A stretch of DNA of 28,023 nucleotides from the IMG/VR virus record IMGVR_UViG_3300023179_000411, positions 1 to 28,023 of that record; one strand, 5' to 3'. Positions 1,242 to 28,023 of the stretch are shown in pieces. The notes beneath the pieces were generated by a model. That model saw only the letters and a list, made by a program, of their open reading frames with translations. It was not told the origin of the DNA and did no database searches. Origin of the DNA: a virus. A program made the translations under genes and the position numbers. Numbering within the stretch: the first letter of the stretch is position 1; the number at the start of each line of letters is the position of its first letter.

Positions 1242-1774
1242 TGTTTCCTAATTGGTTTAAGGATGTAGAGAAGTACTTCAGACATGTACCAAGTGTTCCA
1301 CTTCGTGCACTGCAGATCGGCACCTACACAGGGGACGCTACGGATTGGCTAGTTAATAACCGAGAGATTGAATACCTACATGATGTTGATACTTGGGAAG
1401 GTAGCAAAGAGACTGCCCATGAATCTCTGGATTTTTCTTCAGTAGAGGCTTACTACGACTCAAGATTTAAAGATAACAATAAGATATTAAAGTACAAGAT
1501 GAGTAGTGATGAGTTCTTTTTAAAGAGTACGGATACATATAACTTCATATACATCGACGGTGATCACACCGCACTACAGACCGCTATCGATGGCTTAAAT
1601 GGCTTCAGGCACCTGGAACCAGGTGGGGTGATGGCATTTGATGACTACCTGTGGAACTACGGCGGTAAGGAGTACCTAGAGCCTAAGAGGGGTGTTGATT
1701 GCGTCCTTAACGTCTGTAAGGGTGAGTACAACATCATTGAATCTGGATACCAAGTATGGATTGAGAAGTGCTAG
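1241..1774 (+). CDS. Class I SAM-dependent methyltransferase (Methyltransf_24-like)
   Basis: The 177-residue protein shows a Rossmann methyltransferase layout. Residues 24-31 give the SAM-binding motif I (LQIGTYTGDATDWL), the acidic strand-2 end lies in DVDTWEGS near 48-55, YNFIYIDGDHTA near 100-111 is typical of the Methyltransf_24 group, and LEPGGVMAFDDYLW near 126-139 is the post-II loop. This group often methylates sugars or small molecules in polysaccharide and glycan clusters. The ATG overlaps the TPR gene stop by one base and the gene's end overlaps the glycosyltransferase start by seven bases. O-methylation of a glycan is therefore the likely job, by context rather than by direct evidence. 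Confidence 0.75.
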   Translation: MFPNWFKDVEKYFRHVPSVPLRALQIGTYTGDATDWLVNNREIEYLHDVDTWEGSKETAHESLDFSSVEAYYDSRFKDNNKILKYKMSSDEFFLKSTDTYNFIYIDGDHTALQTAIDGLNGFRHLEPGGVMAFDDYLWNYGGKEYLEPKRGVDCVLNVCKGEYNIIESGYQVWIEKC

Positions 1775-2499
1775 ATAACGCCTGCTTTGAGGTCTTTCAT
1801 ACTGATACTGGAAATGAACTAAGAAACAAATCTTATGAGGGCATTTTAAATTCTATGTCCTTCTTGCCACGCCTTGGCTCTGAGACTATGTATCTAAATA
1901 CAGCAGAGAAGGCTGAAGCATTTATTAATCAAACCCCAGAGTTTAAAGTAAATACGGTTACTGACTTCTGTAAGCCAGGAGAGACCTTCCCACCATCATC
2001 TGGAGTTATAGGAGTTTGGGCAAGTACTTACTTGGCTTATAAAAAGTTTTTAGAGTCTGATAAAAAGTTATTAATACTGTTTGAAGATGACATAGTCATA
2101 AGTAAAAACTTTAAAGGTATTGCAGAGTTATACATGAGCGAACTAATGCCTATCTGGGATTTCTTTTCTTTTTTTGTTCCTGATGATTCACTCTTTGCAT
2201 ATAATGAATCTGAACATGATTTAAGTGAAGAGCACATCTGCAAGTCTTATCAACAATGGTCTTGTGCAGGATATGCGGTAAGTAGACGTGGGGCAGAAAA
2301 AGCAATTGCAGATATTAGATTACAAGGAATTAACTGCCCTATAGATTGGTATATATTTAACTTTAGAATGAAGCAAGAAAAAAATCAAATGCGATTTAAT
2401 ACCTTTACAATAAAACCACAAATATATAAACCTATAAAGTTTTTATTAGAAGCGGCTCAACACAGCCAAATTCACAACGGCAGTACAGAACTACTTTAG
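1768..2499 (+). CDS. GT25-like glycosyltransferase
   Basis: This 243-residue protein follows the glycosyltransferase family 25 pattern. SGVIGVWASTYLAYKKFL near residues 78-95 matches the family's G-x-x-G-x-x-x-S-H-x-x-x-W block, LLILFEDDIVI near 101-111 holds the metal-binding acidic motif, and SCAGYAVSRRGAEKAI near 165-180 is the usual late motif. GT25 enzymes transfer sugars onto LPS or, in eukaryotes and some viruses, onto collagen-type proteins. The start is a GTG overlapping the methyltransferase stop; no better start is seen. The stop codon at 2497-2499 abuts the stop codon of the collagen-like fibre gene on the other strand with no intervening base. Fibre glycosylation is a reasonable but unproved role. 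Confidence 0.7.
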   Translation: MLDNACFEVFHTDTGNELRNKSYEGILNSMSFLPRLGSETMYLNTAEKAEAFINQTPEFKVNTVTDFCKPGETFPPSSGVIGVWASTYLAYKKFLESDKKLLILFEDDIVISKNFKGIAELYMSELMPIWDFFSFFVPDDSLFAYNESEHDLSEEHICKSYQQWSCAGYAVSRRGAEKAIADIRLQGINCPIDWYIFNFRMKQEKNQMRFNTFTIKPQIYKPIKFLLEAAQHSQIHNGSTELL

Positions 2500-3876
2500 T
2501 TACATTCCACCATACAACAACACTGTGGTTGTTGGATCTGCAGCAACTTGTCCAGTAGTTCCTTGTGTACCTTGAGTTCCGTTAGTTCCACCAATACCTT
2601 GCGTACCTACAGTTCCTTGAGAACCAGTTGTGCCTTGGCTACCTACCGTACCTTGGCTACCTACCGTACCTTGGCTACCTACCGTACCTTGGCTACCTAC
2701 CGTACCTTGGCTACCTACCGTACCTTGGGCTCCATTAGATCCTACAAATCCAGCAGTTCCTTGCGTTCCAGTAGTTCCTTGGGCTCCAAGGGTACCTTGA
2801 GTACCTTGAGTACCTTGTGCACCTGTATCACCCTTGTCACCAGTACGAGCAAAGGTAATTAAAATATCATCAGAGTTAAGTAATGTTCCATTTCCAGATA
2901 CATAAGAACAACCAACTGTAAACCAACCAGTATTATCTGTAAGAGATGAAATTGTATAAAGTTTAAATACACTTGTATCTAATTTCTTTGATACACGGAA
3001 GTGTCCTTTAATAGTTGAAGTAGAGTCATCAATTGTGTTTAAAAATGAGGACAAGTCTGTTACAGAGTCATCGCTTGCATCAATATACATAGCAGTTGCC
3101 GTTGTAGGAGATGCGTTAAATCTTAAATTTCCAGTTCCTGGATCAGCATTAGTAGTACTTGTTAAGAAAGTGTAATCAAAGGTGGCTCCACCAAAACTAC
3201 CAACAGTGCCTTGGGTACCTAGAGTTCCTTGAGTTCCAGTAGTTCCTTGAGTGCCTTGAGTACCCTGAGCGCCAAGTGTTCCTTGCGTACCGTTTAATCC
3301 CTGAGTTCCCTGCGTTCCTTGAGTTCCTTGAGTTCCTTGAGTTCCTTGAGTTCCCTGTGTTCCTTGAGTACCAACACCTACAGTACCTTGAGTACCTTGA
3401 ATTCCTTGTGAACCAACAGTACCTTGAATGCCTTGAGTTCCCTGTGTTCCTTGAGTACCAACTGTACCTTGAATTCCTTGAGTACCTTGAATTCCTTGAG
3501 CACCCTGTGCTCCTGTTGTACCTTGAACTTGAGTTACAGTTGTATTAATTACCTGTGTTCCAGCATCGTAGGTAAATGTAATACCTGTTTTACTGCCGCT
3601 ATTTAAGGCATTTGCAATACGTGAATTTGTAGCATATTTATTTACAGTACCTTCAGAAAGGTCATCTGTAGTATTTAATGCTGAACCTGAAATAAGTGCG
3701 GCAATTGCATCTTCATCAAGAAAGTATGGCAAAGTAGCATAAGCAGTACTACCATCACCAATTTTAAATTTATTATTTGTAGTGTCGTAACAAACTTCAC
3801 CAGCATATGGTGTTGGATTATTTGCAGTCCATTGACCAGCAGTTCCTCGTCGTATTTGAATGCGTACTGATGACAT
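2500..3876 (-). CDS. Collagen-like tail fibre protein with Mtd-type N-terminus
   Basis: This is a 458-residue phage fibre. Residues 1-52 (RRGTAGQW, then AGEVCYDTTNNKFKIGDGST) resemble the N-terminal attachment module found in many phage fibres and in the major tropism determinant family. Residues about 118-226 and 350-442 are Gly-X-Y triplets, mostly GTQ, GTV, GSQ and GAQ, with no proline. A globular insertion at about 228-346 carries [17 protein letters not shown] and ends in ITFARTGD. A two-residue register break (GTVGVGTQG) lies near residue 167. The C-terminus is short (AADPTTTVLLYGGM). It is the last gene of the minus-strand operon and overlaps the upstream gene by one base (TAATG). It probably forms a trimeric fibre; the receptor is unknown. 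Confidence 0.8.
   Translation of the reverse strand: MSSVRIQIRRGTAGQWTANNPTPYAGEVCYDTTNNKFKIGDGSTAYATLPYFLDEDAIAALISGSALNTTDDLSEGTVNKYATNSRIANALNSGSKTGITFTYDAGTQVINTTVTQVQGTTGAQGAQGIQGTQGIQGTVGTQGTQGTQGIQGTVGSQGIQGTQGTVGVGTQGTQGTQGTQGTQGTQGTQGTQGLNGTQGTLGAQGTQGTQGTTGTQGTLGTQGTVGSFGGATFDYTFLTSTTNADPGTGNLRFNASPTTATAMYIDASDDSVTDLSSFLNTIDDSTSTIKGHFRVSKKLDTSVFKLYTISSLTDNTGWFTVGCSYVSGNGTLLNSDDILITFARTGDKGDTGAQGTQGTQGTLGAQGTTGTQGTAGFVGSNGAQGTVGSQGTVGSQGTVGSQGTVGSQGTVGSQGTTGSQGTVGTQGIGGTNGTQGTQGTTGQVAADPTTTVLLYGGM
2633..2722 (-). repeat. Five exact 18-bp tandem repeats (GTVGSQ)
   Basis: On the plus strand the unit ccttggctacctaccgta occurs five times in a row without a single change, encoding the hexapeptide Gly-Thr-Val-Gly-Ser-Gln on the minus strand. 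Elsewhere in the fibre genes the same peptide is written with varied codons, so identity at codon level points to recent expansion by slippage or unequal recombination. Confidence 0.95.
3314..3349 (-). repeat. Four exact 9-bp tandem repeats (Gly-Thr-Gln)
   Basis: The 9-base unit gttccttga is repeated four times exactly and continues with near copies on both sides. It encodes the triplet Gly-Thr-Gln in the first collagen-like segment of the fibre. The array keeps the reading frame at any copy number, so it could change stem length without disrupting the protein. Confidence 0.9.
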
Positions 3877-4157
3877 TAAATTACTCCTCCACCATCATAA
3901 GTAAGGGCATAAACATCTGACCCACCTGCTTCATTTCCACCATCAATTGTTGCTGAATAAGAATCACTTCCTCCAGCCTCATCTCCGCCTTCAAGTATAT
4001 CTGCTGCTGCACTAGTAACAATCTCAAACCATTGCACCCCATCAAATACAAACAGATTCTTTGCATCTGTGTTGTAGTAGATATCACCAGCGTACCTGCC
4101 AGTAGGCGCAGTGCCTACGGCAAGTACGTTGATAGGTACTAGGGCTCTTTTACTCAC
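3876..4157 (-). CDS. Small fibre-associated protein
   Basis: This 93-residue protein starts with GTG at 4155-4157. Its N-terminus (MSKRALVPINVLAVGTAPTG, then AGDIYYNTDAKNLFVFDGVQW) parallels the N-terminus of the 918-residue fibre encoded just upstream (FLTPIDL..., [16 protein letters not shown]..., LRTWNGTAW). It therefore looks like a stand-alone copy of the fibre attachment module. The C-terminus holds two copies of GGDEAGGSDSY/GGNEAGGSDVY separated by a short spacer. It lies between two collagen-like fibre genes and shares a one-base TAATG overlap with the downstream one. It may be an attachment adaptor or a remnant of a once larger fibre. The exact role is not known. Confidence 0.6.
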   Translation of the reverse strand: MSKRALVPINVLAVGTAPTGRYAGDIYYNTDAKNLFVFDGVQWFEIVTSAAADILEGGDEAGGSDSYSATIDGGNEAGGSDVYALTYDGGGVI

Positions 4158-4160
4158 GTA

Positions 4161-6917
4161 TTAAGCCTTTACTACGACCCTGTAAATTTCACCTGATTGT
4201 GGAGCAACTGCAAATCCGATAGTTACAGCAGATGTAGTTGATGCAATTACATCAGTGACTACCTCGTTATAAGTAGCGTCTTGAACAGTTACTAACACAT
4301 CTCGTGTTCCAAGATTGTGTGTAATTGTAAATGTTGTTGCTGAGTATGGAGATACTGGAGTAATAGTCTCTGCATAAGTTCCAAGTTGACCAGAGGTACC
4401 TTGGGCTCCCAGAGTTCCTTGAGTTCCTGTTGTACCTTGAGATCCAACTGTTCCTTGTGCACCAGTTGTACCTTGTACACCAGTAGCACCGTCTAAGTTG
4501 ATTGACCATACAGCGTAGGTTCCTGAACCTCTAACGTCATTGACGTTTACAACAAGGGTGTCAGTTCCTGATGTGTAACTTACTACAGTTGCAGACATGT
4601 TGTTGTTTACATCGTAAGCAACTACTACGTCTTGACCTACTGAGTATGAAAGATTTGGATCAGCCAGTACAAAACTTACGTTATTTGCTACTGCAATTGA
4701 ACGTGAGGTTGTAGAGGTTGTCTTGTAGCGATCAGATTGTCCCTGAACACCTTGAGCACCAAGTGTACCCTGAGTACCTTGAGTACCAACAGTTCCTTGA
4801 GTACCTTGTGCACCTACTGTGCCTTGAGATCCAACAGTACCTTGAGCACCTACTGTGCCTTGAGCACCGACAGTTCCCTGAGCACCGACAGTTCCTTGAG
4901 CACCAACAGTTCCCTGAGCACCAACAGTTCCCTGAGCACCAACTGTGCCTTGGCTACCAACGGTACCTTGAGTACCATCTGTGCCTTGAGTACCTTGGGC
5001 TCCAAGAGTACCTTGAACGCCTTGAGTTCCTTGAGAACCGACTGTACCTTGAGTACCAGTAGTTCCTTGAGTTCCTTGTGCACCAGTTGTACCTTGGGCT
5101 CCAAGAGTTCCTTGAGTTCCTTGGCTACCGACTGTTCCTTGTACGCCTTGGGCACCTAAAGTACCTTGAGTACCTTGGGCTCCAACGTCACCAGTACGAG
5201 CAAAGGTGATAAGAACGGCATCGGTATTTGATAAAGAACCAGCACCAGATAAGTATGTAATATCTAAATCAAAGAAACCTGTGTCATCAACCATTGAGTT
5301 GATTGCATACATTGCAAACACAGCCGCATTAGATTTCTTAGATACTTTTACGTGACCTTTAATTGTTGAAGTAGAGTCATCGATAGTTGCTAAATATGAA
5401 GAGATGTTTGTTGCATTTACATCTTCATCATCAATTACAAGATGAGTTGCAGATGCTAAAGATGCATTATTAAATCGTATATTTGTTGAACCTGGGTCTG
5501 ACATTGCGGTGGTTGTACTGTATGCATATTCAACAGTTACGCCGCCAAAGTTACCTTCTTTACCTTGTATACCCTGAATACCATTAGCACCTTGAGCACC
5601 AAGAGTTCCTTGTGTACCCTGTGCACCAAGAGTGCCTTGAGTACCTTGAGAACCTACAGTTCCTTGTACGCCTTGAGATCCAACGGTTCCTTGAGTACCT
5701 TGTGTACCAACACTTCCTTGTACACCTTGAGTACCATCAGTACCTTGAGTACCTTGGGCTCCAACAGTTCCTTGAGAACCTACAGAACCCTGTGCACCAA
5801 GAGTACCTTGGCTACCAACGGTTCCTTGAGATCCAATTGTTCCCTGTGAACCAACGGTACCTTGAGTACCTTGAGAACCAACAGTACCTTGTGATCCAAC
5901 GGTACCTTGGGTTCCTTGTGAGCCAACTGTGCCTTGTACTCCTTGAGAACCAGTTGTTCCCTGGGTTCCTTGAGCACCAACATCACCTGTACGAGCAAAT
6001 GTAAATAAAAGTTCTTCGCCATTGGTAAATGTTCCGTTACCAGATACGTAAGCAACTTCTATATCAAACCAATTTGGTGCTGAGTCTGTAAGACCAGCAA
6101 TTGTGTAAAGTGCAAAGACAGATGTATCAAATTTCTTAGATACTTTTACGTGACCTTTAATTGTTGATGTTGAATCATCAATAGTCTGTAAGAAATTAGA
6201 AATATCGTAGTTACCATCAGAAGGATTATCATCTAATGCAATGTGTGAAACTAAAGTTAAGTTAGCATTGTTTAGACGAGCAAAGTTGTCGCCTGGGTCT
6301 GACATAGTTGTGTTATTACTATATGTATACTCAACAGTAATACCACCAAATGAACCTTCAGTACCTTGAGTACCTTGTGTACCGTTAAGACCTTGTGCAC
6401 CTAATGTGCCCTGTGTTCCTTGAGCGCCAAGAGTACCTTGTGAACCTAGTGTTCCTTGAGTACCTTGCGCTCCTAATGTTCCTTGAGTTCCCTGTGAACC
6501 AACTGTACCTTGTGCACCTAAAGTACCTTGGGTACCTTGTGCACCATTAGAACCGTCTAAACCTTGTGCACCAGCAGTTCCTTGAGAACCTACTGTACCT
6601 TGTGAGCCAACTGTGCCTTGTGCACCAACTGTACCTTGTGAGCCAACAGTACCTTGACTACCTACTGCACCTTGTGTACCAAGCGTTCCTTGGGCTCCAA
6701 GGGTACCTTGAGTACCTTGTGCTCCAGTAGTTCCTTGCGAGCCTTGACTTGCATTAATCCATGCAGTGCCATTCCATGTGCGTAAATATAGTAATACTGT
6801 GTCAAAGTAAACTTGACCAACTACGGGAGATGCTGGAGCGGTCGCTAAATTTTGTATTCTAGCATTTTGTAATTCTAATTTGTTTAAATCAATTGGGGTT
6901 AAAAACTTACGGGCCAT
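4161..6917 (-). CDS. Large collagen-like tail fibre protein
   Basis: This 918-residue protein has a mosaic layout: an attachment module at residues 1-57 and four Gly-X-Y segments dominated by [12 protein letters not shown] and GSQ. Two related globular insertions start at about 190 and 457, each with [17 protein letters not shown] and ending [13 protein letters not shown] or [14 protein letters not shown] different insertion ([10 protein letters not shown]...AVWSINLDG) follows near 730-815. The final ~65 residues contain [16 protein letters not shown] and YRVVVKA, a beta-rich fibre tip also present in the neighbouring 104-residue protein. A clear AAGGAG at 6928-6933 precedes the ATG. It is probably a trimeric receptor-binding or side fibre. 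The absence of proline means any triple helix would have to be stabilised in another way. Confidence 0.8.
4843..4950 (-). repeat. Six 18-bp tandem repeats (GTVGAQ)
   Basis: Six consecutive 18-base units beginning tgagcacc encode Gly-Thr-Val-Gly-Ala-Gln repeatedly. The units differ by one to a few bases, mostly at codon third positions, so this array is older or has diverged more than the exact array at 2633-2722. Confidence 0.85.
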
Positions 6918-8892: not shown

Positions 8893-10020
8893 TTAGTTGG
8901 TGTAAACCTTAACAATTGCTTGATCGGTAATTACGCCAAGACCCCAGATTGCATACCAAGCAAGAGCGTGCTCACGACCGAAGTCAAGAACGCCACCATC
9001 ACGAAGTTCAACTGGAAGAGAGATTGCGTGACCAAATGCGTTGTCACCAATCATGATTGATTCGTAAACTTCAGCACCGTTACCAGTTGCTGATGTTAGG
9101 TAACCTTTTTCTGCTGTGTAATTTGCAGACTCTGGGTTTCCACCACTTCCTGGAGCAGTGTTAGCCTTAACAGGAACTTCAATTTGAGATGCTGGAATAC
9201 CAACAGAAGTTGAAGTTGTGTATGCAGCGTTAACTGATAGTTTTTTAACCTGTGTTGTTTCGATGAATACTACGTCGTATAGACGACCGATTTCACCTAG
9301 CATGAAGTTACCTGGAGCAGCGTACTTAGTTACTTCGATGAACTCTGGGTTCGAACGAATATCACGTGACTGCTTTGGGTGTACGAACTGTACGTATGTC
9401 TCGCCTAAACGAGGGATGTTCTTACCAGCAAGGGTAAGAGCAGCATCCTTTACAGCACCAGTTGATAACTTGTAGTTACCATCAAGGTCTGACATTTGTG
9501 TTGCTACTGTACCTTCGTTGTACCAGTCATTAACACCTTGTACTGATGAACGGTCATAACCGAACACTGCAGAAGTTGCTGCAGATAGAGTGTTACGTGC
9601 TTGTACATCTAGGTATTGCGCCATTTGGCGTCCTAGAAGACGAGATGCTGAAGCCATTACATCATCAAATGATGCATTAAGTAGCAACTCAGAAACAGCA
9701 ACGGCATAACCGTGTTCTGCTACTGTGATTGCAATCTGCTCTGCAGTAAGTGCGTTTGTTGTCATACGAACGCCTTCTGTCAAAGGAGTTGGATCTACTG
9801 CGAAGTTCTTGTAACGAAGGAAGTTCACACGAAGACCAGGTGCTACACCTAGTTCAGTCTTCTTAACTGCAAACTGTTCGAAACGAAGAATTGGCATTGC
9901 CTGGAACAAAATTTCTTTTGACCAGATTGTTTGAATTGCTTGGTTCAGGCTTGTATTTGAGCCTGAGTAAGCGGTTGGGGCGCCTGCGAGTTGCCCTGTA
10001 CCTGTAATTGCACTTGCCAT
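8893..10020 (-). CDS. Major capsid protein (N4-gp56-like)
   Basis: This 375-residue protein resembles the N4-gp56 family of HK97-fold capsid proteins. Visible landmarks are an N-arm (SNTSLNQAIQTIWSKEILFQ, then AMPILRFEQFA), LTEGVRMTTNALTAEQIAIT near residues 80-99, the spine-helix region SELLLNASFDDVMASASRLLGRQMAQYLD, and the late KNIPRLGETYVQFVHPKQSRDI with LGEIGRLYDVVFIETT. Length is usual for the family. It follows the scaffold gene and is followed by a stem-loop and small head gene, the usual order of scaffold, capsid, accessory. It assembles the icosahedral shell around the portal and scaffold. The assignment is firm in type and less certain in subfamily. Confidence 0.85.
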   Translation of the reverse strand: MASAITGTGQLAGAPTAYSGSNTSLNQAIQTIWSKEILFQAMPILRFEQFAVKKTELGVAPGLRVNFLRYKNFAVDPTPLTEGVRMTTNALTAEQIAITVAEHGYAVAVSELLLNASFDDVMASASRLLGRQMAQYLDVQARNTLSAATSAVFGYDRSSVQGVNDWYNEGTVATQMSDLDGNYKLSTGAVKDAALTLAGKNIPRLGETYVQFVHPKQSRDIRSNPEFIEVTKYAAPGNFMLGEIGRLYDVVFIETTQVKKLSVNAAYTTSTSVGIPASQIEVPVKANTAPGSGGNPESANYTAEKGYLTSATGNGAEVYESIMIGDNAFGHAISLPVELRDGGVLDFGREHALAWYAIWGLGVITDQAIVKVYTN

Positions 10021-10054: not shown

Positions 10055-10831
10055 TTAACCGAACAGTCCCTGACCACGATTGCTGGCTGCTGTGCCAAGT
10101 AATTTGGCTCTTTGTTTCGCATAATCCGCCAATGACATTTCCCTGATCGAATCAGGTGAGTACGATTTTTGTTCCGAATCATTATCGAGGGGTCCTGCGG
10201 CAGGATTAGTAATTCTTGTTCCTGCCATTTGTTGTCTTGCACTTTGCATTGCCTGTTGGGCAGATGCCAAGATTCGAGCAGATTTTTCTTTTAACATTGC
10301 GATGCTCTGCTCAATTTCATCTGCATTGTTTCCGTCAATTAAATCAATCAATTCAGGAACAATATTTTCCCGTTCTTGTTCAACTCTCTGTTGACGATAA
10401 TTCATAACTTCTTGAAACTTACGTTCTTGATCTAGAAGAGCAATAGCACGTTCTCTTTCAAGACGTTCAGCCTCTAATTGAGCCTGAAATTCTTGCTCCT
10501 TCTTTTTTAGGAGTTCTTTAAAAGAAAGTTCAGATTCTTCTTCTTCTTTCTTTTGTGCTTCTTTACGAGCCTCTTCTTCAGCAATTCGTTTTTCACGTTC
10601 TGCTTCTTTTAAGGCTTGTTCTTCACGAGCCTTCTTTAAAGATGCAAGTTCTTCTTTCATCTTTTCCATTTGTGGGTATAACTTTGCTTTCTCTTGCTCA
10701 CGAGCCTTAGCAATGTCATCTGCGCTATACACAGAACCTACCTCACTTGGATTTTCTTGTGCTGGAATTGCAGCCAGAATTTCTGGCGACAATAGATCAG
10801 CGGTTTCTACTGTATTTTCCATAGTTATCAC
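10055..10831 (-). CDS. Scaffold (capsid assembly) protein
   Basis: This 258-residue protein is extremely charged: residues 40-190 form a long Lys/Glu/Gln-rich coiled coil (EEQALKEAEREKRIAEEEAR and similar). The N-terminal section (ADLLSPEILAAIPAQENP) and the short C-terminus (SLADYAKQRAKLLG) are the likely partner-binding ends. Length and composition fit internal scaffolds that guide capsid assembly and leave before packaging. Its position between portal and capsid genes is classical. The first start is GTG at 10829-10831; an ATG three codons later (10820-10822) is also possible, since neither has a strong binding site. A reading frame in another phase inside the end of this gene (10021-10242) has no independent support. 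Confidence 0.75.
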   Translation of the reverse strand: MITMENTVETADLLSPEILAAIPAQENPSEVGSVYSADDIAKAREQEKAKLYPQMEKMKEELASLKKAREEQALKEAEREKRIAEEEARKEAQKKEEEESELSFKELLKKKEQEFQAQLEAERLERERAIALLDQERKFQEVMNYRQQRVEQERENIVPELIDLIDGNNADEIEQSIAMLKEKSARILASAQQAMQSARQQMAGTRITNPAAGPLDNDSEQKSYSPDSIREMSLADYAKQRAKLLGTAASNRGQGLFG

Positions 10832-10952: not shown

Positions 10953-12698
10953 TTAATCTCTGTCTACTGTTCTTCTTTGTGGAATTTTTGTTCCATAAGC
11001 CTCAGTAACAAGTTTGTTTCTTATCTCAGCCTCTGCTTCAACTTCTATGCCTTTTATTTCTTGACTTGCTGGATTTAAAGGATTATCAGCATCTTGAGGG
11101 CCCTGCATTCCATCACCTACGACATCTCCGTCGCCTATAACGGTAGGCTGCATTGGAATGGCACTGCTGCCATCTGGTCCTGGCATCATGCCAGTCATGT
11201 CCATAATTTGTTTTTGAATTTGAATCTTTATAAGTTGTAAAGCACCATCAGCCTCGGCATCCGCCATAAGTTCTTTACGAATTTCTTGTAGTTTTTCTTC
11301 AGGGAATTCTTCACCAAGTTGACGTAAGGCACCTTCTTTAGACTCAAGTCCCATGCCTAATTTAGTTTGAATTTCATTAAGAACAATTAACTTATCAAGT
11401 GGAAGTGGCTGCGGGAACTGTGCATAATTGATGTAAGTAACAGGATCATTTGGGTCTAGTTGTGGGTACTGCCCATCTTTAATGGGTCCATCTTCATCTG
11501 GATTGTATAGAAAAGTTTGAGGTTCTTTAAATGCAAGAGTTTTTAAAACTAACTCATTTATTTTTTCTAAACCTGTTCCATATTGTGCAACTTTTTGAGA
11601 ATAACGATTCATTAGAGGTTGATATTGAATAGAAAGAGCAACACCTGATGTATTTGAAATTGGTTGAACTTGTCCCAGTGCGGTTTCTGGGATGTTCATT
11701 AGTTCATGCATTGAGCGCTTTAAAAGTTCTAGGTATTTCAAGGCTCCATCTATACCTTGTGCACCACCTTCTAAGTTGAAGACTTGAGCATCTTTTGGAA
11801 GACCGCCCCAAACCTTCTTAGCGCCTTTTTCTAAGTTAGAGGCTTTAGCACCCACGATTACCGTTACTGGTGATGCGTGGTAGTTAATGATGTCTGCAAC
11901 ATCAGTGCTAATTTCGTTGTATGCACGGTTTATAGTGATGATGTCGTGTGCGTCCGAGAGACCCCACGGAGATCCTGAAACAGGAATATTAGGAATATGA
12001 ACTACAGGAATTATGCCCAAAGGATTTGGACGTGAGTCTATTAGTTCATCATTTACGTACTCTTCAATAACGTCATCAGTAAGAATTTCAGTGTAAGTAA
12101 ATACTTGACGAGTACCTTCTAGAGATGTTCCCCAGAAACGATACTTTTGTTTAAATCTTAATAATCTTGTTCTATCATGTGGGTGAAATTCTGGGAAACA
12201 GAAAGAAGAGTTCATAGGAAGAATGCGAACACGACCAGGATGTAATAGTCCTGCAGAGTCTGTCCAAGGTTCTTCGTATGCTACTTTAACAAAACAATCG
12301 CCTGTAATTCCGCCTTGCTGTCCCATTTCGAGTAAGACACGCATCTTGTCATTGTCTACCGTCCAAACACGTTCCAACCTGTCAGGTACAATCGCTTCAG
12401 TCGCTTTCGGAGACCTATAATGAACCCCACGACCAAAAGTAAAACGGGAAAGATAATCATTAAACGCCCGATAGTAGTTAACAGCGATTTGCATTTCGCC
12501 TTGCTCACGACGGTACCCCCAATGGTGTCCTAAATACATCGCCCAATTAAGCGAGTAACGATTTAAACGAGGTCCATGAACTTCAAATCGTCAGAACTCT
12601 TCATCCGCTAACTCTACTAGTCCGAGTGGACTAATTGAAATAGTTAGGTCTGAAGAGGCTGCACGATAAGACGGTGGTGAAAAGTCTAAGAATGACAT
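10953..12698 (-). CDS. Portal protein (SPP1-type), interrupted by in-frame TGA
   Basis: The intact-looking portal runs from ATG 12696-12698, with a GGGGGT binding site about ten bases before it, to TAA at 10953, about 581 codons. Codon 36 is TGA (12591-12593). Sequence on either side fits a portal N-terminus: MSFLDFSPPS... before it, and NRYSLNWAMYLGHHWGYRRE after it. The 528-residue part starting at ATG 12539 is complete for the rest of the portal: LEMGQQGGITGDCFVKVAY in the wing, HIPNIPVSGSPWGLSD, and the C-terminal MNIPETALGQVQPISNTSGV. The ATG at 12539 has no convincing binding site, so it is unlikely to be the normal start. Portals form the dodecameric DNA channel with terminase, whose gene lies upstream. 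Possible explanations are readthrough, reassignment or a sequence change from TGG or CGA. Confidence 0.8.
12591..12593 (-). other. In-frame TGA within the portal gene
   Basis: This is a single TGA inside an otherwise open portal frame. The local reading is Glu-Glu-Phe-TGA-Arg-Phe-Glu-Val. The stop is followed by C, which is reported to be the least efficient termination context in bacteria. Many other genes in the window use TGA as a normal stop in ATGA overlaps, so general reassignment is unlikely. Confidence 0.85.
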
Positions 12699-14186: not shown

Positions 14187-15773
14187 CTAGAAAAAAGGAT
14201 TGCTAGAGGCTACTACTTCAGGCATTACTAAATCTTGAGTTAATGAACAGGCAATTGCTAAAGAATCTACAAAATCATCATGGGCATAAGATTCGTCAGG
14301 GGCTGCTACAAGAAAATTTGGACCCTTGTACTGCACCTCTGCATCGACCATTTGTTGATAAAACCGTTTCCATGTCCGTAAGCGCCTAGTTTTTGCATGA
14401 GCAGGCCATGCAATCATTTTACGCTGAACTAGTGCTTGCAGATGTTTCCATCGTTTTGACTGTTCAGATGGACTAGAAGTTAAAGACATGACTTCTGCTC
14501 TTGGTAATAAAAGTTTTAGACGTTGAGCAACAGCGTCACCTACACCATTTGCATCTACACCAACAGCAAGAACGTCATAGTTACTTAAAAAATTTACTAT
14601 TTGATAGTACTGTTCTTCCCAATCATCGCCTTGCATTTCTAACCAATTAAGGATTCGATGATCGAAATAACCAAACTCATCAGGACGATCCCAATCAACC
14701 CAAACAACAGTAACAACTGTACTATCAGTTTTGCGAGCAGGATCAATACCTACAACAACTGGAGTCTTGTGCCATACCTTAACAAGTTCTTGAGAAGTAT
14801 CTCCTAGATCATCCATAATTGATGAAGTAATAAACATTCCTCTTTCTAATAACCATTTACAGTTATAAGACATTTGAAACTCATCGGATTCTTCTCCAAT
14901 ACGCAACATTTCTTTACGAATAAACTTTTCATAGTTTGGATTAAATTTAGATACATCTTTCCAGTCCCATTGAAAATGATTTTGTCTATTACCTTTAGTT
15001 GTTTGACGTCTACGATTTAACTGAATAGATCTATAGAAATTATTTTTACTTGTAGTTGGTGTTCCTGTTTTTACCATTGTTCCTGCATAATATGCAAGCA
15101 TAGGTGAAATAGATTTAGAAACAACAAAATCATCTGCTTCTTGACACTCATCTACTACAATCAAATGAAAAGATTTAGATTCAATTTTTGCTCGTGGATT
15201 TGCAGTCATCATAGTTATTGTTGATCCTGATTTTTTTAATTTAAGTTGTCTAGTTACTCCACCTACTCGAATTGCAGAATCATCAATTTCAACATCTCCC
15301 ATAATATCTACGGCTCTTTCAGATGTTAGTCTAGTTACAGCACGACCAAATAAAGTTTCAGCCTGAGATTCAGTTGGTGCAAATAATCCAACCCAAACTC
15401 CATCTTTAAATTTTCCTAATAAATCTGGATATAATTTTGCAAGACGAGGCAAGAGAATCATTAAAGTTGCGACAGTGTCTGCCACAGTTTCAGATTTACC
15501 AGATTGACGTGAGGCAAGAGCAGTTATTTCTTCGCCATCATTAATGATTACTGATTCCATAATACGACGGGCTAGAGGTTTTTGATAAGCATGTAAGTCA
15601 TGTCCTACAAGAACTTTTAAAAAGTCCATCATTTTATCTATTAAAGTATCTACAAATTTTTGAGATAATTCATCCAATAAGTCTTCAACAGGATCTTCAA
15701 TAGGTTTTTCTTCAGCCTGATAGAACTCGGGATTAATTTCCTCAAACTTATCTTTATCGTATTTAGATTCCAT
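14187..15773 (-). CDS. terL: Terminase large subunit
   Basis: This 528-residue protein is the packaging motor. The Walker A variant is ASRQSGKS at 87-94, Walker B is LIVVDE at 204-209, and the coupling region KTGTPTTSKNNFYRS lies at 235-249. The C-terminal nuclease domain has the RNase H-like acids: GIDPARKTDST at 342-352, GVDANGVGDAV at 405-415 and SYAHDDFVDSLA at 495-506. It docks on the portal and pumps DNA using ATP. Length is typical. It leads the packaging-head part of the operon and is followed by the 131-residue gene. Small terminase is not identified. A short unit immediately upstream may fill that role, with no evidence beyond location. Confidence 0.9.
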   Translation of the reverse strand: MESKYDKDKFEEINPEFYQAEEKPIEDPVEDLLDELSQKFVDTLIDKMMDFLKVLVGHDLHAYQKPLARRIMESVIINDGEEITALASRQSGKSETVADTVATLMILLPRLAKLYPDLLGKFKDGVWVGLFAPTESQAETLFGRAVTRLTSERAVDIMGDVEIDDSAIRVGGVTRQLKLKKSGSTITMMTANPRAKIESKSFHLIVVDECQEADDFVVSKSISPMLAYYAGTMVKTGTPTTSKNNFYRSIQLNRRRQTTKGNRQNHFQWDWKDVSKFNPNYEKFIRKEMLRIGEESDEFQMSYNCKWLLERGMFITSSIMDDLGDTSQELVKVWHKTPVVVGIDPARKTDSTVVTVVWVDWDRPDEFGYFDHRILNWLEMQGDDWEEQYYQIVNFLSNYDVLAVGVDANGVGDAVAQRLKLLLPRAEVMSLTSSPSEQSKRWKHLQALVQRKMIAWPAHAKTRRLRTWKRFYQQMVDAEVQYKGPNFLVAAPDESYAHDDFVDSLAIACSLTQDLVMPEVVASSNPFF

Positions 15774-16035: not shown

Positions 16036-16336
16036 CCGCTTCTCTATCCGAGTCTGGGGCTGGTGTCCATCCTGCTTCTTCCGTAAAATCATCGTAAGTT
16101 ACTTCCCGCTTTCCTAGTGCCATTGTTAATGCTTCTTCTTCATTTTTTGTGCCAGTCCATTTCCCAAACACTAGCGCTTTGTATCTTGGTAATCGTACTA
16201 TAAAAGGAGTTGATGTGCGAAATGGGTGCTCAATTTCTTGAGTCCAACCACGTACAAAGAACTTAAAACCCCATTTAAAAGGAAAGTTTGTTAATTGTAT
16301 AAAATGTTTTGGTCCGACTTTATGTACCTTGGGCAT
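15938..16336 (-). CDS. Hypothetical conserved-looking phage protein
   Basis: This 132-residue protein is rich in aromatics: HFIQLTNFPFKWGFKFFVRG, IEHPFRTSTPFIVRLPRYKA. The first ~85 residues look like a compact beta-rich domain; the tail (EAGWTPAPDSDREAGGNNRY) is polar. The start overlaps the upstream gene stop by one base (TAATG). The family is not recognised. Its position before terminase and after the KTSC-domain gene suggests packaging or head assembly. Confidence 0.5.
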   Translation of the reverse strand: MPKVHKVGPKHFIQLTNFPFKWGFKFFVRGWTQEIEHPFRTSTPFIVRLPRYKALVFGKWTGTKNEEEALTMALGKREVTYDDFTEEAGWTPAPDSDREAGGNNRYSRFDFMDGAIDVYDWKTHYDLAKTTE

Positions 16337-17094
16337 TATGTCCTTTTCTTAGACTGACGTCCTCCATAGTGTAATTGAGCAGCACGAGTAAACTTGTAGA
16401 AAGTTTTTCTAGCATTTGCAGATAAACTAGAAACATCTGCAGCACCACGAGGTTTATAATCTAAAAACGTATAGATATAACGCCCCTTAGATACTACAGA
16501 TTTAAATTTTTGCCAATCTCCTGCTGAACACTCGTAGTAATTGTAGAAGGTTCCGTCTCTAAACACAACTGTAATAACCTCACGATTACGGTCGTAACCT
16601 GCAGCCACAGTTCGTGGCCGTGCTGGATCAGTTGTGCTAGTTGGAACAACTGTTATAGGAGCAGGAGCATCAGACTCCCCAAATTGAGGACCTTGTTCAC
16701 CTGGAACAATTAATTCACCCGTATCTTCATCAACATCATATGACTGACGATAAACAGACCTATCAACATAATTTCCATCTTTGTCTATATAGTAAGCATC
16801 ACTATCAATATTTGGCGCTAATGCTTCTCCTGCTAAATTTGCAACTTTGTTTGTTCCAGTGTAGTAACGCATTGTGTCATTTGCTTTAGTTAAAGAGATA
16901 AACTCACTGTATTCACCAACAGAACTTGCTGTTGGCAGACCAGCAAACATACTGGTACCTGATCCTGTTATCTTAGAAATTCCTGCGGTTTGTTTAGAGC
17001 CTAAACCGTAAAACGCTCCTAATAATTCTTGAGCAGAAGGAAGAGCAGCCCGTCTATTACGACGAGCCGCTCCCCCACCTGATATACGTGCCAT
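16336..17094 (-). CDS. KTSC-domain protein
   Basis: This 252-residue protein carries a C-terminal domain (about 165-225) that fits KTSC: AGYDRNREVITVVFRDGTFYNYYECSAGDW... and SKGRYIYTFL, which contains the small beta-fold with G-x-x-Y and YxYY pattern. KTSC is thought to bind RNA or other ligands, and it occurs in many phage proteins. Residues 1-30 are basic (RRNRRAALPSAQ). The middle part is polar and probably flexible. The gene lies upstream of the packaging genes. A virion location is plausible but unproved. Confidence 0.6.
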   Translation of the reverse strand: MARISGGGAARRNRRAALPSAQELLGAFYGLGSKQTAGISKITGSGTSMFAGLPTASSVGEYSEFISLTKANDTMRYYTGTNKVANLAGEALAPNIDSDAYYIDKDGNYVDRSVYRQSYDVDEDTGELIVPGEQGPQFGESDAPAPITVVPTSTTDPARPRTVAAGYDRNREVITVVFRDGTFYNYYECSAGDWQKFKSVVSKGRYIYTFLDYKPRGAADVSSLSANARKTFYKFTRAAQLHYGGRQSKKRT

Positions 17095-23788: not shown

Positions 23789-24052
23789 TCAGTCTTGTTG
23801 GATGCCTAGTCTTTCTAAATACCTTTCTTTTTCACTCATTATATACTCTTCAATACGTTTATATTGAATTTGAGTCTGTTCTTCAGTTGCCTTTATTTGT
23901 TCTTCAGTCATTTCTCCATTTAATTCTTTAAAGGTTTGAACAGCAAGATCTAACTGGTTTTTAATTAGAGCCGCTCTTAATTGAGCCTGATTCCATAAAA
24001 ATTCAGCATGTTCTTCTTTTCTTTGTTTTCTCTTATCTTGAGTCTTAGACAT
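23789..24052 (-). CDS. Coiled-coil hypothetical protein
   Basis: This 87-residue protein is nearly all helix: KRKQRKEEHAEFLWNQAQLR, then QTQIQYKRIEEYIMSEKER. Nothing indicates membrane insertion. It may be a small adaptor or chaperone. The 86 bases between it and the next gene hold a hairpin-rich spacer (24053-24138). Confidence 0.45.
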   Translation of the reverse strand: MSKTQDKRKQRKEEHAEFLWNQAQLRAALIKNQLDLAVQTFKELNGEMTEEQIKATEEQTQIQYKRIEEYIMSEKERYLERLGIQQD

Positions 24053-24138: not shown

Positions 24139-24684
24139 TTACTTATACTGTTCTTTCTCAATGTATGGACCTGAAGTAAAGGCTGTGAGTTTTGCGGCAA
24201 TATCCATAGCCTTCATTGGTTTAGCACCCGCATGTAGAGCGCCCAAGGCATAAGAAGCACCAGAACCAACTGCATAAGTTCCATCCATACTTCTCATTAC
24301 AGCCAGATCTTGATCAATATCAAATAGTTCTCCACCTACAGCCATTAGAAATTGAAATCGTAATCCTTCTTTAGATTTATCGTGATCTTCGTTAAAATCA
24401 TATCCATTTTCAATTAAACATTTCCGTAGAGATGGCATGGCTTTTGCAATCATAAAGTGGTAGACATCTTTAGAATCTTTAGCAGTTAATTTTGGCGGAT
24501 TCCAGATGTGCTGTGCAATATCGCATGGGGATACTTCTCCAGAACCAGCAATTAAAAAGTCACCACGTTCAGTAACCTTTGTCATTTGTGGATGCCTATA
24601 AATACGTCCACTATCATCTGTTACTTGATTATCTGCAAGTAAAATACAACGATCATCGTACTGAACCCCAATAATTGTTGTCAT
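24139..24684 (-). CDS. HslV/proteasome-beta-like Ntn hydrolase
   Basis: This 181-residue protein has the HslV-type layout. After Met removal the N-terminal Thr2 would be the nucleophile (MTTIIG). D18 lies in LLADNQVTDD, K36 in MTKV, and a GSG loop follows at 47-49. Residues 138-150 (AVGSGASYALGAL) match the late Ntn motif. HslV cleaves proteins in a ring driven by HslU; actinobacterial 20S beta subunits use the same chemistry. No unfoldase gene is in the window, so it may borrow a host ATPase or act alone on virion or host proteins. Its AAGGGG ribosome site lies in a predicted stem (24688-24746). It lies downstream of the endolysin. Confidence 0.75.
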   Translation of the reverse strand: MTTIIGVQYDDRCILLADNQVTDDSGRIYRHPQMTKVTERGDFLIAGSGEVSPCDIAQHIWNPPKLTAKDSKDVYHFMIAKAMPSLRKCLIENGYDFNEDHDKSKEGLRFQFLMAVGGELFDIDQDLAVMRSMDGTYAVGSGASYALGALHAGAKPMKAMDIAAKLTAFTSGPYIEKEQYK

Positions 24685-24687
24685 GAC

Positions 24688-24746
24688 ACCCCTTCAGTAG
24701 AAAGCCCTCCAAGAATACCAGATGGTTCTTAGAGGGCTATAGGGGT
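24688..24746 (-). promoter_or_regulatory. Structured leader masking the ribosome site of the Ntn-hydrolase gene
   Basis: On the minus-strand RNA, ACCCCU (24741-24746) can pair with AGGGGU (24688-24693), which contains most of the AAGGGG ribosome site four bases before ATG 24682-24684. A 13-bp hairpin (24703-24715 with 24726-24738, ten-base loop, one G-U pair) is enclosed. The inner hairpin is followed by UUUCU, so partial termination is also possible. The fold would expose or hide the start of the protease gene. Confidence 0.5.
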
Positions 24747-24758
24747 AATTTGTCCGAT

Positions 24759-25499
24759 TTATAGGAATTTAATCAATTCCGCCCAAGTCTTAGGGCCAAT
24801 TATACCATTTGAGTCGATATTGCCGTGATTGTCCTGAAATGCAATTACAGCCTTTTTTGTGGCTGGACCGTAATCACCATCAGACATTAACCCAAGTGCT
24901 CTTTGTACAATTTTAACTGCAGAACTCTTATCTCCAGGTTTAATTCTTCCTGGAAAGGCTGGAATATCTGAAACAGGTACTGTAGCCTCAACTTCATTTC
25001 CAGAATAATTTGGTCTACCAAAACCTACAATACTGACCATAACTTTTTTCTTGTTAGGTATATAACCTCTAACTTTTTTACAAACTTCTCCACCGTTGCG
25101 TTGATCGCCCTTTGCATTACCAGCAGTATTACCTTCAATACAGGTAACAGTTCCATCATTATTATTAGATACAACAATTCCTACATGAGAAATACGATCT
25201 ACACCATCTCCTGGAAAATCAAAATAGGCTATGTCTCCTGGTTTTGGAGATGCCTCTTTTGCATCTGTCCAGGTGCCCATTTTTTTAAATGCTGTAGCAC
25301 CTGCAACAGTTGAAACTGTATTAGGAACCTTCACACCTGCTTGATTGGCGCACCACATAACAAATGAACCACACCATGGTAAGAAATCGGCCTTAGTAAA
25401 TTTGCCGTACTTAGTCTCATTATCTTTAGGACCTTCAATAGTTCCTACTTCTTTTTCAGCAATCTCAATAATTGCTGCTGCTGTGCCTTTATCTGCCAT
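24759..25499 (-). CDS. CHAP endolysin with peptidoglycan-binding domain
   Basis: I start at ATG 25497-25499, since TAGGAG (25505-25510) is five bases upstream; an in-frame GTG precedes it by one codon. Counting from the GTG, the CHAP domain has Cys44 in LPWCGSFVMW, His106 in RISHVGIVV and Glu123 in CIEGNTAG. It is preceded by IAEKEVGTIEGP. The C-terminal ~55 residues (IKPGDKSSAVKIVQRALGLM, DGDYGPATKKAVIAFQ, GIIGPKTWAEL) form a PG_binding_1 repeat. It cleaves peptidoglycan peptide bonds to release phage. There is no signal peptide, so a holin is needed; the candidate lies at 19513-19707. Confidence 0.85.
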   Translation of the reverse strand: MADKGTAAAIIEIAEKEVGTIEGPKDNETKYGKFTKADFLPWCGSFVMWCANQAGVKVPNTVSTVAGATAFKKMGTWTDAKEASPKPGDIAYFDFPGDGVDRISHVGIVVSNNNDGTVTCIEGNTAGNAKGDQRNGGEVCKKVRGYIPNKKKVMVSIVGFGRPNYSGNEVEATVPVSDIPAFPGRIKPGDKSSAVKIVQRALGLMSDGDYGPATKKAVIAFQDNHGNIDSNGIIGPKTWAELIKFL

Positions 25500-25507
25500 C
25501 ACATCTC

Positions 25508-26026: not shown

Positions 26027-26383
26027 TTAAGACTTTTCTCCCATACGATTCATTAAGATTTTTGCACGTTTAGAAGGTTCTTTAGTTAAAAATCCTCTGC
26101 CCTTTGCCTTCTCATATGGAACTGCAGTTGCAAATTGATCTGAAGTTGCATCAAGTATCTTTCCTGATGAATGTTTTAAAAACCAGTGACTAGTTCCTTC
26201 ATGAGTTACCTGCATCGGTGTATAACCTGCGGCTTTACCACCTAGTGAATGATATACCGCTTCACTGGCTACGTAACAATGGCCAGCAGTCTTGCACTCG
26301 TGTCCACGAAACTTTGGCTTACGTAGGTCATCACTAAGATGCTCTCTAACGTTAGTAACTATCTGATGATCGTAATTATTCAT
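26027..26383 (-). CDS. Putative Cys-His-Asp enzyme
   Basis: This 118-residue protein has a possible triad: Cys36 in AGHCYVASEAVYHSLGGK, His67 in HEGTSHWFLK and Asp78 in KILDATSDQF, in the order Cys-His-Asp used by transglutaminase-like and papain-like enzymes. The tail (GFLTKEPSKRAKILMNRM) is basic. The start overlaps the ParB-like gene stop as ATGA. Together with its sibling (26889-27407), which also ends its catalytic stretch in D-x-T-x-x-Q-F, it may be a small host-directed protease or deamidase. Substrate unknown. Confidence 0.5.
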   Translation of the reverse strand: MNNYDHQIVTNVREHLSDDLRKPKFRGHECKTAGHCYVASEAVYHSLGGKAAGYTPMQVTHEGTSHWFLKHSSGKILDATSDQFATAVPYEKAKGRGFLTKEPSKRAKILMNRMGEKS

Positions 26384-26892
26384 TGAAATTGCTTAAAGTG
26401 TCCAGGATGAATATTTGTAGGCACGTACTCTTTGCCCATACGTTCTTCGTAACTTCCTTTATCAGTAAAGTTAGTTGTCATTGCTAGGTGACCACCTATA
26501 AATTTTTCTTTTCGTTCACCTAATCCTGGCTGACGATAAACTGTCACGGGCACATGGGAGACGCCCTCTGCCATTGCAGCCTCTAATCTATGGTGACCTT
26601 CACCAACAACGCCCCATTTATTAGCATGATCATATGCAACCATAATTGGATTGTTAATACCTTTGCCACTCTTAATATCGGCCCTAATTCCAGCAACGGT
26701 CTTAAAACTAGATGGCTGAGCATCAGCACCAAGACGTCTATGTTCCATCAAAGGAATTAGGCGCTCAGTCCTAACCATGCCAGTAGCACTCTCAGTTGGA
26801 TCACCTTCAAGATGACCTTTACCGCCTGCTTTTCTTTGTTGCACGTAGTCAGGAACAGGAACACGAAATTGTTTTTGATTTAAATTAATCAT
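26380..26892 (-). CDS. ParB/Srx-like protein
   Basis: This 170-residue protein has WGVVGEGHHRLEAAMAEGVS near residues 93-112, the signature of the ParB/sulfiredoxin-like domain, followed by HVPVTVYR. ParB domains hydrolyse CTP or nick DNA; in phages they are sometimes attached to toxins and methyltransferases. The N-terminal third is polar. ATGA overlaps join it to both neighbours. Partitioning is unlikely without a ParA gene nearby; regulation or an effector role is more plausible in this context. Confidence 0.6.
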   Translation of the reverse strand: MINLNQKQFRVPVPDYVQQRKAGGKGHLEGDPTESATGMVRTERLIPLMEHRRLGADAQPSSFKTVAGIRADIKSGKGINNPIMVAYDHANKWGVVGEGHHRLEAAMAEGVSHVPVTVYRQPGLGERKEKFIGGHLAMTTNFTDKGSYEERMGKEYVPTNIHPGHFKQFQ

Positions 26893-27407
26893 TGTTCTGG
26901 GTAAATGTTCCCTTCTTTATCAGCACGGTATAGATCAACACGGTTGCTATGCATTGTGTCAAACTTTGACATAGATTTTCTATTTTGAAACTTACCCATC
27001 TTTTCTACAACAGGAAACTTTGCTCTAGCATTAAATTGTCTTTGAGTATAATCAACAGCATACATACCTTCAGTAGTTGGTACATGATGTACAAAGTGAT
27101 TAGCAAACTCATCTTTGCCAGTATGGTCACGTCTATATTCAACTACATGTGATCCATGTGGCAAATGATCGTGAGCGTAACGACAAGCCCTGTCGCATTC
27201 ACCTTGTGCAGATTCTTTATTTCCACCTAAATATCGTAATTGATTGTTATAAGGATCTTTTAAATCACCTGTAGCGCCATGCTCTCCACCAAGTTCAGGA
27301 TGGTCTTTATCTGTAAGACTCTTTGCAATATGAGTTAACTCTCTTGGTGTATGAATTAATGGCTCTTGTTTCCAGACTCCGTGAGAAAACTCTTGACCTC
27401 TACTCAT
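26889..27407 (-). CDS. Putative Cys-His-Asp enzyme, second
   Basis: This 172-residue protein has a possible Cys-His-Asp set: ECDRACRYAHDHL supplies Cys70/74, ANHFVHHVP supplies His, and YAVDYTQRQF supplies Asp. This resembles polymorphic-toxin papain- or transglutaminase-type folds. Its end reads FPVVEKMGKF, then polar sequence. It starts MSRGQEFSHGVWK, similar to the last residues of the 116-residue protein at 18363. ATGA overlaps link it to the ART-like gene before it and the ParB-like gene after it. Enzyme activity is inferred. Confidence 0.45.
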   Translation of the reverse strand: MSRGQEFSHGVWKQEPLIHTPRELTHIAKSLTDKDHPELGGEHGATGDLKDPYNNQLRYLGGNKESAQGECDRACRYAHDHLPHGSHVVEYRRDHTGKDEFANHFVHHVPTTEGMYAVDYTQRQFNARAKFPVVEKMGKFQNRKSMSKFDTMHSNRVDLYRADKEGNIYPEQ

Positions 27408-27736
27408 TTCAACACCGATGCCACTTGTCGTTTTACCTTAAATCCTTTTCTAGAAGCAACTGTTTTAACTATACCTGAAAATGCTGCCTCTTCTAAAGAA
27501 GTATCATTAGGAAAAGGTTCTACCTCATAAATTTTTCCATGAGATACATCCTTACTTTTATCACCTAATCCCATACCAGTACCAAGTCTGGTTTGAGTAT
27601 GAGCGATTGCTCCTCCAAGACTTTCTGTAGCAAAAGCATGACCGCTCTTTGTTCTAGGAGTAATTATTGCGCCCTCTTTTATATCTTCAATACTTCCATG
27701 AAATAACTGTTTAGATAAGTTGTCTTCTGCAGCCAT
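27404..27736 (-). CDS. Arr-like ADP-ribosyltransferase
   Basis: I start at ATG 27734-27736 (MAAEDNLSKQ), which forms a TAATG overlap with the preceding gene and has GGAAAG before it; a GTG four codons earlier (27748) is open but less likely. The 110-residue protein follows the rifampin-ADP-ribosyltransferase pattern: LFHGSIEDIKEGAIITP, then HAFATESLGGAIAHTQ, GKIYEVEPFPND, and SRKGFKVKRQVASVL. Arr enzymes use NAD to modify rifamycins; phage relatives may modify proteins or nucleic acids. It ends in an ATGA overlap. The family is moderately certain; the target is unknown. Confidence 0.6.
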   Translation of the reverse strand: MAAEDNLSKQLFHGSIEDIKEGAIITPRTKSGHAFATESLGGAIAHTQTRLGTGMGLGDKSKDVSHGKIYEVEPFPNDTSLEEAAFSGIVKTVASRKGFKVKRQVASVLK

Positions 27737-28023
27737 TACGCTTTCCACTTCCTTGGTGGATTGTATGTGCGTGTGCGATCTCTCTTATCACTTAATTTAG
27801 TAATAGCAGTTACGTGCACGGTGCTGCCCTTTTTAACAGGAATCTCATTTTCCCAATACTCATCGTAAACTTGATTCTTCTTTAAAACATCAGGACGAGT
27901 CTCACGACTCTTTTTAGCCACCTGTCCTTCAATCACAACGCCAGGTCCACGCCGAATAGGATTTCTTGCAAACCCGACGGCTCTTTCTGGATCTTCTGTC
28001 CAATGCATACCTAAAGGCTTTTT
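27736..28023 (-). CDS. ART-like protein C-terminus (5' partial)
   Basis: The frame is open to the right edge; upstream codons continue KKPLG before MHWTEDPERAVGFA, so the ATG at 28006-28008 is internal. The visible ~95 residues have GMHWTEDPERAVGFARNP and NEIPVKKGSTVHVTAITKL, a layout seen at the ends of ADP-ribosyltransferase-like and other toxin domains in phage head proteins. The end is basic (TYNPPRKWKA). It could be the tail of a larger head or effector protein. The fold assignment is uncertain because the catalytic N-terminal half lies outside. Confidence 0.5.
   Translation of the reverse strand, partial: KKPLGMHWTEDPERAVGFARNPIRRGPGVVIEGQVAKKSRETRPDVLKKNQVYDEYWENEIPVKKGSTVHVTAITKLSDKRDRTRTYNPPRKWKA

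Follow-up and report, generated by a model that had tools for sequence, protein, structure and literature searches.

The betaproteobacterial proteasome homologue, BPH (5ovs, 5ovt and 5ovu), is an HslU-free tetradecameric double ring with an elongated acidic pore loop. In the passages of its description drawn on here (PMC5777263), its reading begins MTT, as does that of the peptidase described below, the start Met was found to be removed, and no protease activity was recorded on the model substrates tried. Proteasome homologues of phages are also already in print. In the parts of the 2021 survey used here (Fuchs et al. 2021, PMC8665760), no genomic context hinted at a specific function, no AAA+ partner was identified, and no Actinobacteria-specific phages carrying the homologue AAH were reported; AAA+-free action with housekeeping chaperones was raised by its authors as a possibility.

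We compared with these systems a gene in an IMG/VR record of 28,023 bases that is probably part of a longer viral contig; this whole stretch of DNA is called the window here. The gene occupies positions 24139-24684 on the minus strand and encodes a proteasome-like Ntn peptidase of 181 aa in the BPH/HslV group, as indicated by a PHROG match, a structural model and alignments. ORFs were called mechanically. The plus strand of this interval is stop-rich, and coding is confined to the minus strand, on which the ORF runs from 24684 to 24139.

Fold, active site and signals of the peptidase gene

PHROG 1040 ("peptidase HslV family") matched residues 1-175 of the peptidase at 1.4e-27, while the Pfam Proteasome model reached 20.1 bits (5.2e-4), just under its curated cut-off of 22.4. 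An AlphaFold2 monomer model, computed from a 31-sequence alignment, had the proteasome fold with a mean pLDDT of 90.1 and a pTM of 0.86. Among the VIA-align matches listed, BPH 5ovt came first (Z 18.3 over 158 residues at 2.3 Å), but the Z values of archaeal proteasome beta (17.9) and HslV (17.4) fall within 1 of it and hence count as ties; the listed matches to BPH, HslV and 20S beta had Z of 16-18 over 154-171 residues. In a profile search, the closest solved chain was BPH 5ovu (9.7e-12), with query position 2 placed on BPH residue 1, followed by HslV (4.9e-8 and weaker) and the best proteasome beta chain (2.7e-5). Two curated HslV models gave 22.7 bits (cut-off 137) and 22.1 bits (cut-off 157.75), far too little for true HslV, which was set aside. 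The archaeal proteasome beta model scored similarly (22.7 bits), and the bacterial 20S beta model was absent among the NCBIfam matches. The PHROG match, the model and the residue conservation described next also rule out a chance resemblance. The protein is thus a proteasome-family Ntn peptidase of the BPH/HslV group and not HslV proper; of the original prediction, which called it HslV/proteasome-like, the proteasome fold stands and the HslV name is too narrow, BPH being nearer.

Relatives of the peptidase were gathered from IMG/VR with several seeds, giving 207 distinct sequences from 325 ORFs once 11 ORFs shorter than 150 aa had been left out and the starts trimmed to the TTI motif. T2, D18 and K36 were invariant in all 207, the window's protein included, and G49, present in the window, was kept in 204; T3 was found in 201. 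Within the late GSG block (140-142), G140 and G142 were invariant (207/207) and position 141 was S or T in 202. An earlier, untrimmed alignment of 163 sequences, with 9 shorter ones left out, agreed (T2, D18, K36 and G49 identical in 163/163, T3 in 160). T2, D18, K36 and G49 correspond to the catalytic set of proteasome-like Ntn peptidases, a Thr/Ser nucleophile with Asp17, Lys33 and Gly47. Because T3 varies, we marked T2 as the nucleophile, and the putative active site comprises Thr2 after removal of Met, Asp18, Lys36 and the oxyanion residue Gly49. The N-terminus has no propeptide. The conservation of Thr2, D18, K36 and the GSG block had been noticed from the window alone and extends across the family; together with the proteasome-fold model, it upholds the accompanying view that the protein looks catalytically able, and judged by its sequence the peptidase looks intact.

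The model contains both helices, 51-60 and 74-92, and its strand at 37-40 connects directly with that at 43-48 (taken here as S3 and S4). A 14-residue segment at the position of the pore loop is net acidic, with a mean charge of -2.8 in 30 endolysin-linked peptidases (the window's group) and -1.75 in 75 portal-linked ones; it is modelled at a pLDDT of about 60 and is less acidic than in BPH. The gene is under purifying selection: among 83 equal-length genes, using pairs with dS of 0.2-1.5, NG86 dN/dS had a median of 0.069 (1138 pairs), or 0.039 when restricted to the 44 pairs containing the window's gene, with one outlying pair at 1.27.

A ribosome-binding site, GAAGGGG (24689-24695, minus strand), can be read before the ATG, and a G-rich stretch is visible at this position in most of 23 aligned loci. 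Between the endolysin and peptidase genes lies a conserved hairpin (24703-24738, minus strand) with 13-nt arms that are 92% complementary and a folding z of -3.8. Changes in the hairpin are compensatory among the 23 aligned loci: five of its ten predicted pairs have at least one change on both sides. The hairpin also holds a nearly invariant TGGTATYCT. It could be a terminator, a leader element or, by way of TGGTATYCT, an extended -10 promoter. It was not listed by a consensus terminator scan, a consensus promoter scan did no better than shuffles, and an Rfam scan of the window gave no matches.

The upstream neighbour encodes an endolysin with CHAP and peptidoglycan-binding domains (24759-25502, minus strand; Pfam/PHROG), and the downstream neighbour is an ORF for an 87-aa protein (23789-24052, minus strand). 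In 17 of 25 endolysin-type relatives with downstream DNA, an ORF of 320-327 aa stands between the peptidase and 87-aa genes (copies at L012:9188-10171, L044:9881-10843, L046:10710-11675 and L052:3011-3994). Its product has a signal-peptide-like start and is missing in the window; the L012 copy had no match in Pfam, PHROG, NCBIfam or PADLOC. Upstream of the endolysin, window positions 26027-28023 hold a run of small genes, YunG-like and ParB-like ones among them, whose number varies among relatives, and positions 27404-27748 gave a very weak Arr (ADP-ribosyltransferase) match.

Host and genomic contexts

The terminase, portal, scaffold-position and capsid genes of the window all lie on the minus strand, and terminase and capsid point to actinophages. 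The terminase large subunit (14187-15773) is 53% identical to those of Streptomyces phages and the major capsid protein (8893-10020) is 62.6% identical to that of Streptomyces phage LuckySocke; the Streptomyces phages near the window by terminase (53%) and capsid (62%) include BRock and LuckySocke. Between the portal (10953-12539; Pfam/PHROG annotation) and the capsid, an E/K-rich protein that looks coiled-coil by eye (10055-10831) takes the scaffold position; it had no Pfam or PHROG match, and LuckySocke has an annotated scaffolding protein in the same place and the same order of portal, scaffold and capsid. The gene whiB, called exclusive to Actinobacteriota in the part of the source cited (PMC10202952), was found in 13 of 17 records, including the window-type records G010 (95.5 kb), G012 and G028 (81 kb), and was not found in the window, G011 or G026. 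The nearest peptidases in the annotated phage collection belong to OX376641 and OX376640 (43.6% and 40.3% identical), whose assembly names are LanE43-AprF5 and LanE43-AprE7; the same portion of PMC10202952 describes these as phages cultured on 'Ca. Planktophila' strain LanE-43. The expectation of an actinobacterial host, here among freshwater actinobacteria, is therefore backed by terminase and capsid, by whiB in relatives and by the Planktophila-phage alleles. Elsewhere in the window, glycosyltransferase family 25 and methyltransferase genes lie beside long collagen-like tail-fibre genes (678-6917), possibly a set for fibre glycosylation, and a KTSC-domain protein (16336-17094; Pfam 3e-9) is encoded just upstream of the terminase.

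In a first census of 166 loci, the portal gene was directly upstream of the peptidase in 97 (gap 5-18 bp), an endolysin in 63 and another gene in five, with one locus cut. This census was mostly seeded by the peptidase itself and samples near relatives (the best 80 loci per seed), and some contigs were counted under several locus ids. The window belongs to the endolysin group, its peptidase adjoining the endolysin at 8.4 kb from the terminase gene. The portal group includes the two phages cultured on Planktophila; its genes run from terminase through portal and peptidase to small genes, a protein of 1500-1700 aa, a scaffold-like protein and capsid. On the peptidase tree, rooted at its midpoint, endolysin-linked genes are nested with portal-linked ones in a 17-member set (support 99/98), and a single clade of endolysin-linked genes is weakly supported (50/39).

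A terminase search (best 80 loci of at least 600 matching stretches) provided window-type records. Of the 14 whose DNA upstream of the terminase measures 9.5 kb or more, 13 keep the peptidase gene, at changing places: nine carriers were seen in the locus, two lie on contigs known to hold the gene and two were found by record search (one 29% identical). The exception is the record of L260, which has no peptidase. Within the window's lineage the peptidase can be found elsewhere, as in G026 (the L280 record), which has a terminase 90% identical to the window's. A third context was seen at L063:8214-13784, where a 76%-identical peptidase stands beside an 85-aa gene, away from portal and endolysin, and also adjoins what by eye appear to be DNA cytosine methyltransferase genes. 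A scan of genome contigs added one distant locus (L086), and no portal gene was annotated within 4-kb flanks in five other phage records (D'Alembert, Pumpernickel, E3, MTATph1 and EF1-1).

Partners and possible roles

The original prediction had found no HslU-type gene in the window, and as the window is a fragment, absence there alone says little. The search was taken beyond it, and the HslU/Clp-type ATPase family (Pfam AAA_2) was absent from all 18 phage records, the window included. The wider Pfam AAA family matched in 13 of 17 records, eight over the cut-off, and not in the window. In the portal-linked phages (L083), the match is a 260-aa AAA_25/DnaB-like protein, and a protein 53% identical to it occurs in G016, a record without the peptidase; this match was accordingly rejected as a partner. 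The window-type records G010, G012 and G027 gave weak AAA matches below the cut-off, and G028 gave one at it. Unfoldases of other families, or those of the host, may be partners of the peptidase.

In one sub-type of the window's lineage, a chaperone gene accompanies the peptidase. At all 17 loci of this sub-type (L350-L366), an Hsp20/alpha-crystallin gene (Pfam 4.8e-18) comes next, 88-165 bp downstream on the same strand. Viewed from the Hsp20 side, 18 loci have an Hsp20 with 61% or more identity to the query, and in 16 of them the peptidase immediately precedes it; of the remaining two, L422 is cut and L420, with only 235 bases of upstream DNA, had none in view. Among 25 more distant Hsp20 loci (41-53%), the ORF was recovered in 23 and none had the peptidase within the locus. 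Hsp20 was found in four of 27 records, all carriers of this peptidase type and three of them chosen as carriers; it was not found in the window fragment or in 23 of the 27 records. One contig (L035 = L350) carries two peptidase genes, one linked to the endolysin and one to Hsp20 (pair at L035:1672-2812), while a single peptidase was found in each of three records of 86-97 kb. The peptidase of L364, of the Hsp20 sub-type, is 61% identical to the window's. Since the Hsp20-paired peptidases are 90-100% alike, the pair is probably one event in one lineage of near relatives.

Our leading reading, held tentatively and at slightly short of even chances, is an accessory, ATP-independent, late-expressed BPH-like peptidase acting on unfolded or short substrates. 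The initiator Met would be removed and Thr2 exposed, and the subunits would assemble as in BPH into stacked rings enclosing the active sites; by analogy, such a self-compartment, one of the assemblies first proposed, is the most likely for this peptidase. Without an ATP-driven unfoldase, the cylinder would accept short peptides, proteins that have lost their fold beforehand and proteins bound to a chaperone. In the one sub-type this chaperone would be the product of the adjacent phage Hsp20 gene, and in the window's phage one of the host. Unfolded and incomplete proteins would in this way be removed or recycled towards the end of infection, the late expression being suggested by the portal or endolysin neighbours. 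As no unfoldase was found, the protein lacks a propeptide, the fold is BPH-like and a holdase gene is adjacent in one sub-type, ATP-independent degradation is the simplest mechanism. In its favour, too, the gene is retained by 13 of the 14 window-type records counted above, although the Streptomyces relative LuckySocke lacks it. Against it, the Hsp20 pair probably goes back to one event and was seen in few records, BPH itself had no protease activity on the model substrates tried, the pore loop is less acidic than that of BPH and modelled with low confidence, and the repeated allele exchange described next would suit an arms race no less than housekeeping. A broader proposition, that actinophages carry an ATP-free module in which a proteasome-like barrel is fed by a phage Hsp20 or a host chaperone and travels as an exchangeable cassette, seems to us rather improbable as a whole.

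The strongest rival, which we consider doubtful but well short of negligible, is a host-takeover or counter-defence protease that cuts particular host proteins, with hosts or their defences selecting new alleles. It is kept in this place because of the rapid allele exchange. The portals of L067 and L083 are 85% identical and their terminases 78%, but their peptidases only 43%; the peptidases of L067 and the window share 73% identity, while the capsids of the window and L083 share 24%. The peptidase also evolves faster than its neighbours, with 52-57% identity to that of L083 in loci whose portals are 80-89% identical (L125, L127, L130, L144, L147 and L164), and near relatives differ in having the gene present, absent or exchanged. 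We typed the alleles by short sequence motifs (W, B, C and X, the last a mixed remainder) and counted absence as one type. On a quick portal tree of 97 sequences (147 portals, 119 distinct, 97 after thinning), the type changes 20 times by parsimony, where the least possible is four and the shuffled mean 55.8; absence alone changes three times. Many forks are weak; if only well-supported branches are counted, 2-5 changes per type are still required. The gene behaves like a cassette that passes from one phage group to another. The counter-defence role has no known target, however, PADLOC, whose library holds defence and not counter-defence proteins, gave no match for the peptidase, and the Hsp20 neighbour points instead to protein quality control.

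The slot behind the portal is the usual place of prohead proteases, and the original prediction had allowed for the maturation of virion proteins. The 5-18 bp spacing behind the portal in 97 of 166 loci, mostly found through the peptidase itself, speaks for such a role, as does the census seeded by the portal (78 loci that could be evaluated, from the best 80 of at least 600 matching stretches), where the peptidase adjoins the portal in 67. The slot would also be free: Peptidase_S78 matched in only one of 18 records (DSL-LC01) and ClpP in none of 17, both weak absences, since the annotated capsid protease of Microbacterium phage WaterT likewise escaped the S78 search, and S78 and ClpP were the families covered. 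However, 11 of the 78 portal loci lack the peptidase, and none was found elsewhere in those 11 records, mostly fragments with only three above 30 kb; in the two longest, of 39.9 and 37.5 kb, a scaffold-like protein (65% identical) and the capsid (68% over 257 aligned positions) are retained. The Streptomyces relatives LuckySocke and FlowerPower have no such peptidase either, the capsid maturation protease of WaterT is a separate protein, and the window's gene is placed beside the endolysin, 8.4 kb from the terminase gene. Since 11 of 78 loci lack the gene, alleles switch repeatedly and the window's lineage carries the gene elsewhere, head maturation is unlikely, with a small chance left to it, and this part of the prediction is disfavoured. 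From the portal to the next conserved gene, 71 loci have the peptidase (49), the peptidase and a small gene (11) or a small gene only (11); small genes sharing or replacing the slot were seen at L083:20534-20788 and as 73-79 aa ORFs in L182-L229. LuckySocke gp42, annotated "peptidase", was rejected as an orthologue, being a different protein by sequence in a record with no peptidase match.

Many actinobacteria have a 20S proteasome, and the peptidase shares the fold of its beta subunit, but a protein that joins the host proteasome, as the original prediction allowed, or blocks it is very unlikely: the profile is nearer to BPH and HslV than to proteasome beta, the bacterial 20S beta model is missing from the NCBIfam matches, and archaeal beta scores no differently from HslV. 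A literature search on a Planktophila proteasome listed one paper, and this was on nitrite reductase. A specific ligase or transpeptidase like connectase, for which the fold is capable according to the part of PMC8665760 cited, is the most improbable reading, as the model has strands 3 and 4 joined directly and would thus lack the connectase-type two-helix insertion between them.

Comparison with known systems

With BPH, the window peptidase shares the fold, the catalytic residues, the absence of a propeptide, the lack of any partner ATPase found and an acidic stretch at the pore-loop position. It differs in its identity of only 21-25% in structural alignments, in its less acidic loop and in being phage-borne, and it is described here from its sequence and a monomer model. 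The fold and active site are also common to HslV (ClpQ), whose curated cut-offs lie far above the window's score and whose HslU-type ATPase was not found in the phages. PHROG 1040 is a broad family, and its most numerous hits, in phAPEC8-type Escherichia phages, are 29% identical. As described in the parts of PMC8665760 used here, PPH and AAH are likewise phage-carried proteasome homologues without AAA+ partners. PPH has about 140 residues and no helix H2; with 181 residues and both helices in its model, the window protein is not PPH.

The window peptidase is a further case of an already known sort of phage proteasome homologue, and our literature search, which covered the peptidase gene and not the Hsp20 pair, found no paper on it in actinophages. 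If the protein were AAH, these phages would be Actinobacteria-specific carriers of a kind missing from the survey. The role of unfoldase-free proteasome homologues is an open question that two of the contexts make testable: the fixed, allele-swapping slot behind the portal, occupied in the two cultured 'Ca. Planktophila' phages, and the peptidase-Hsp20 pair. According to the cited part of PMC10202952, the LanE-43 phages and their host strain exist in culture.
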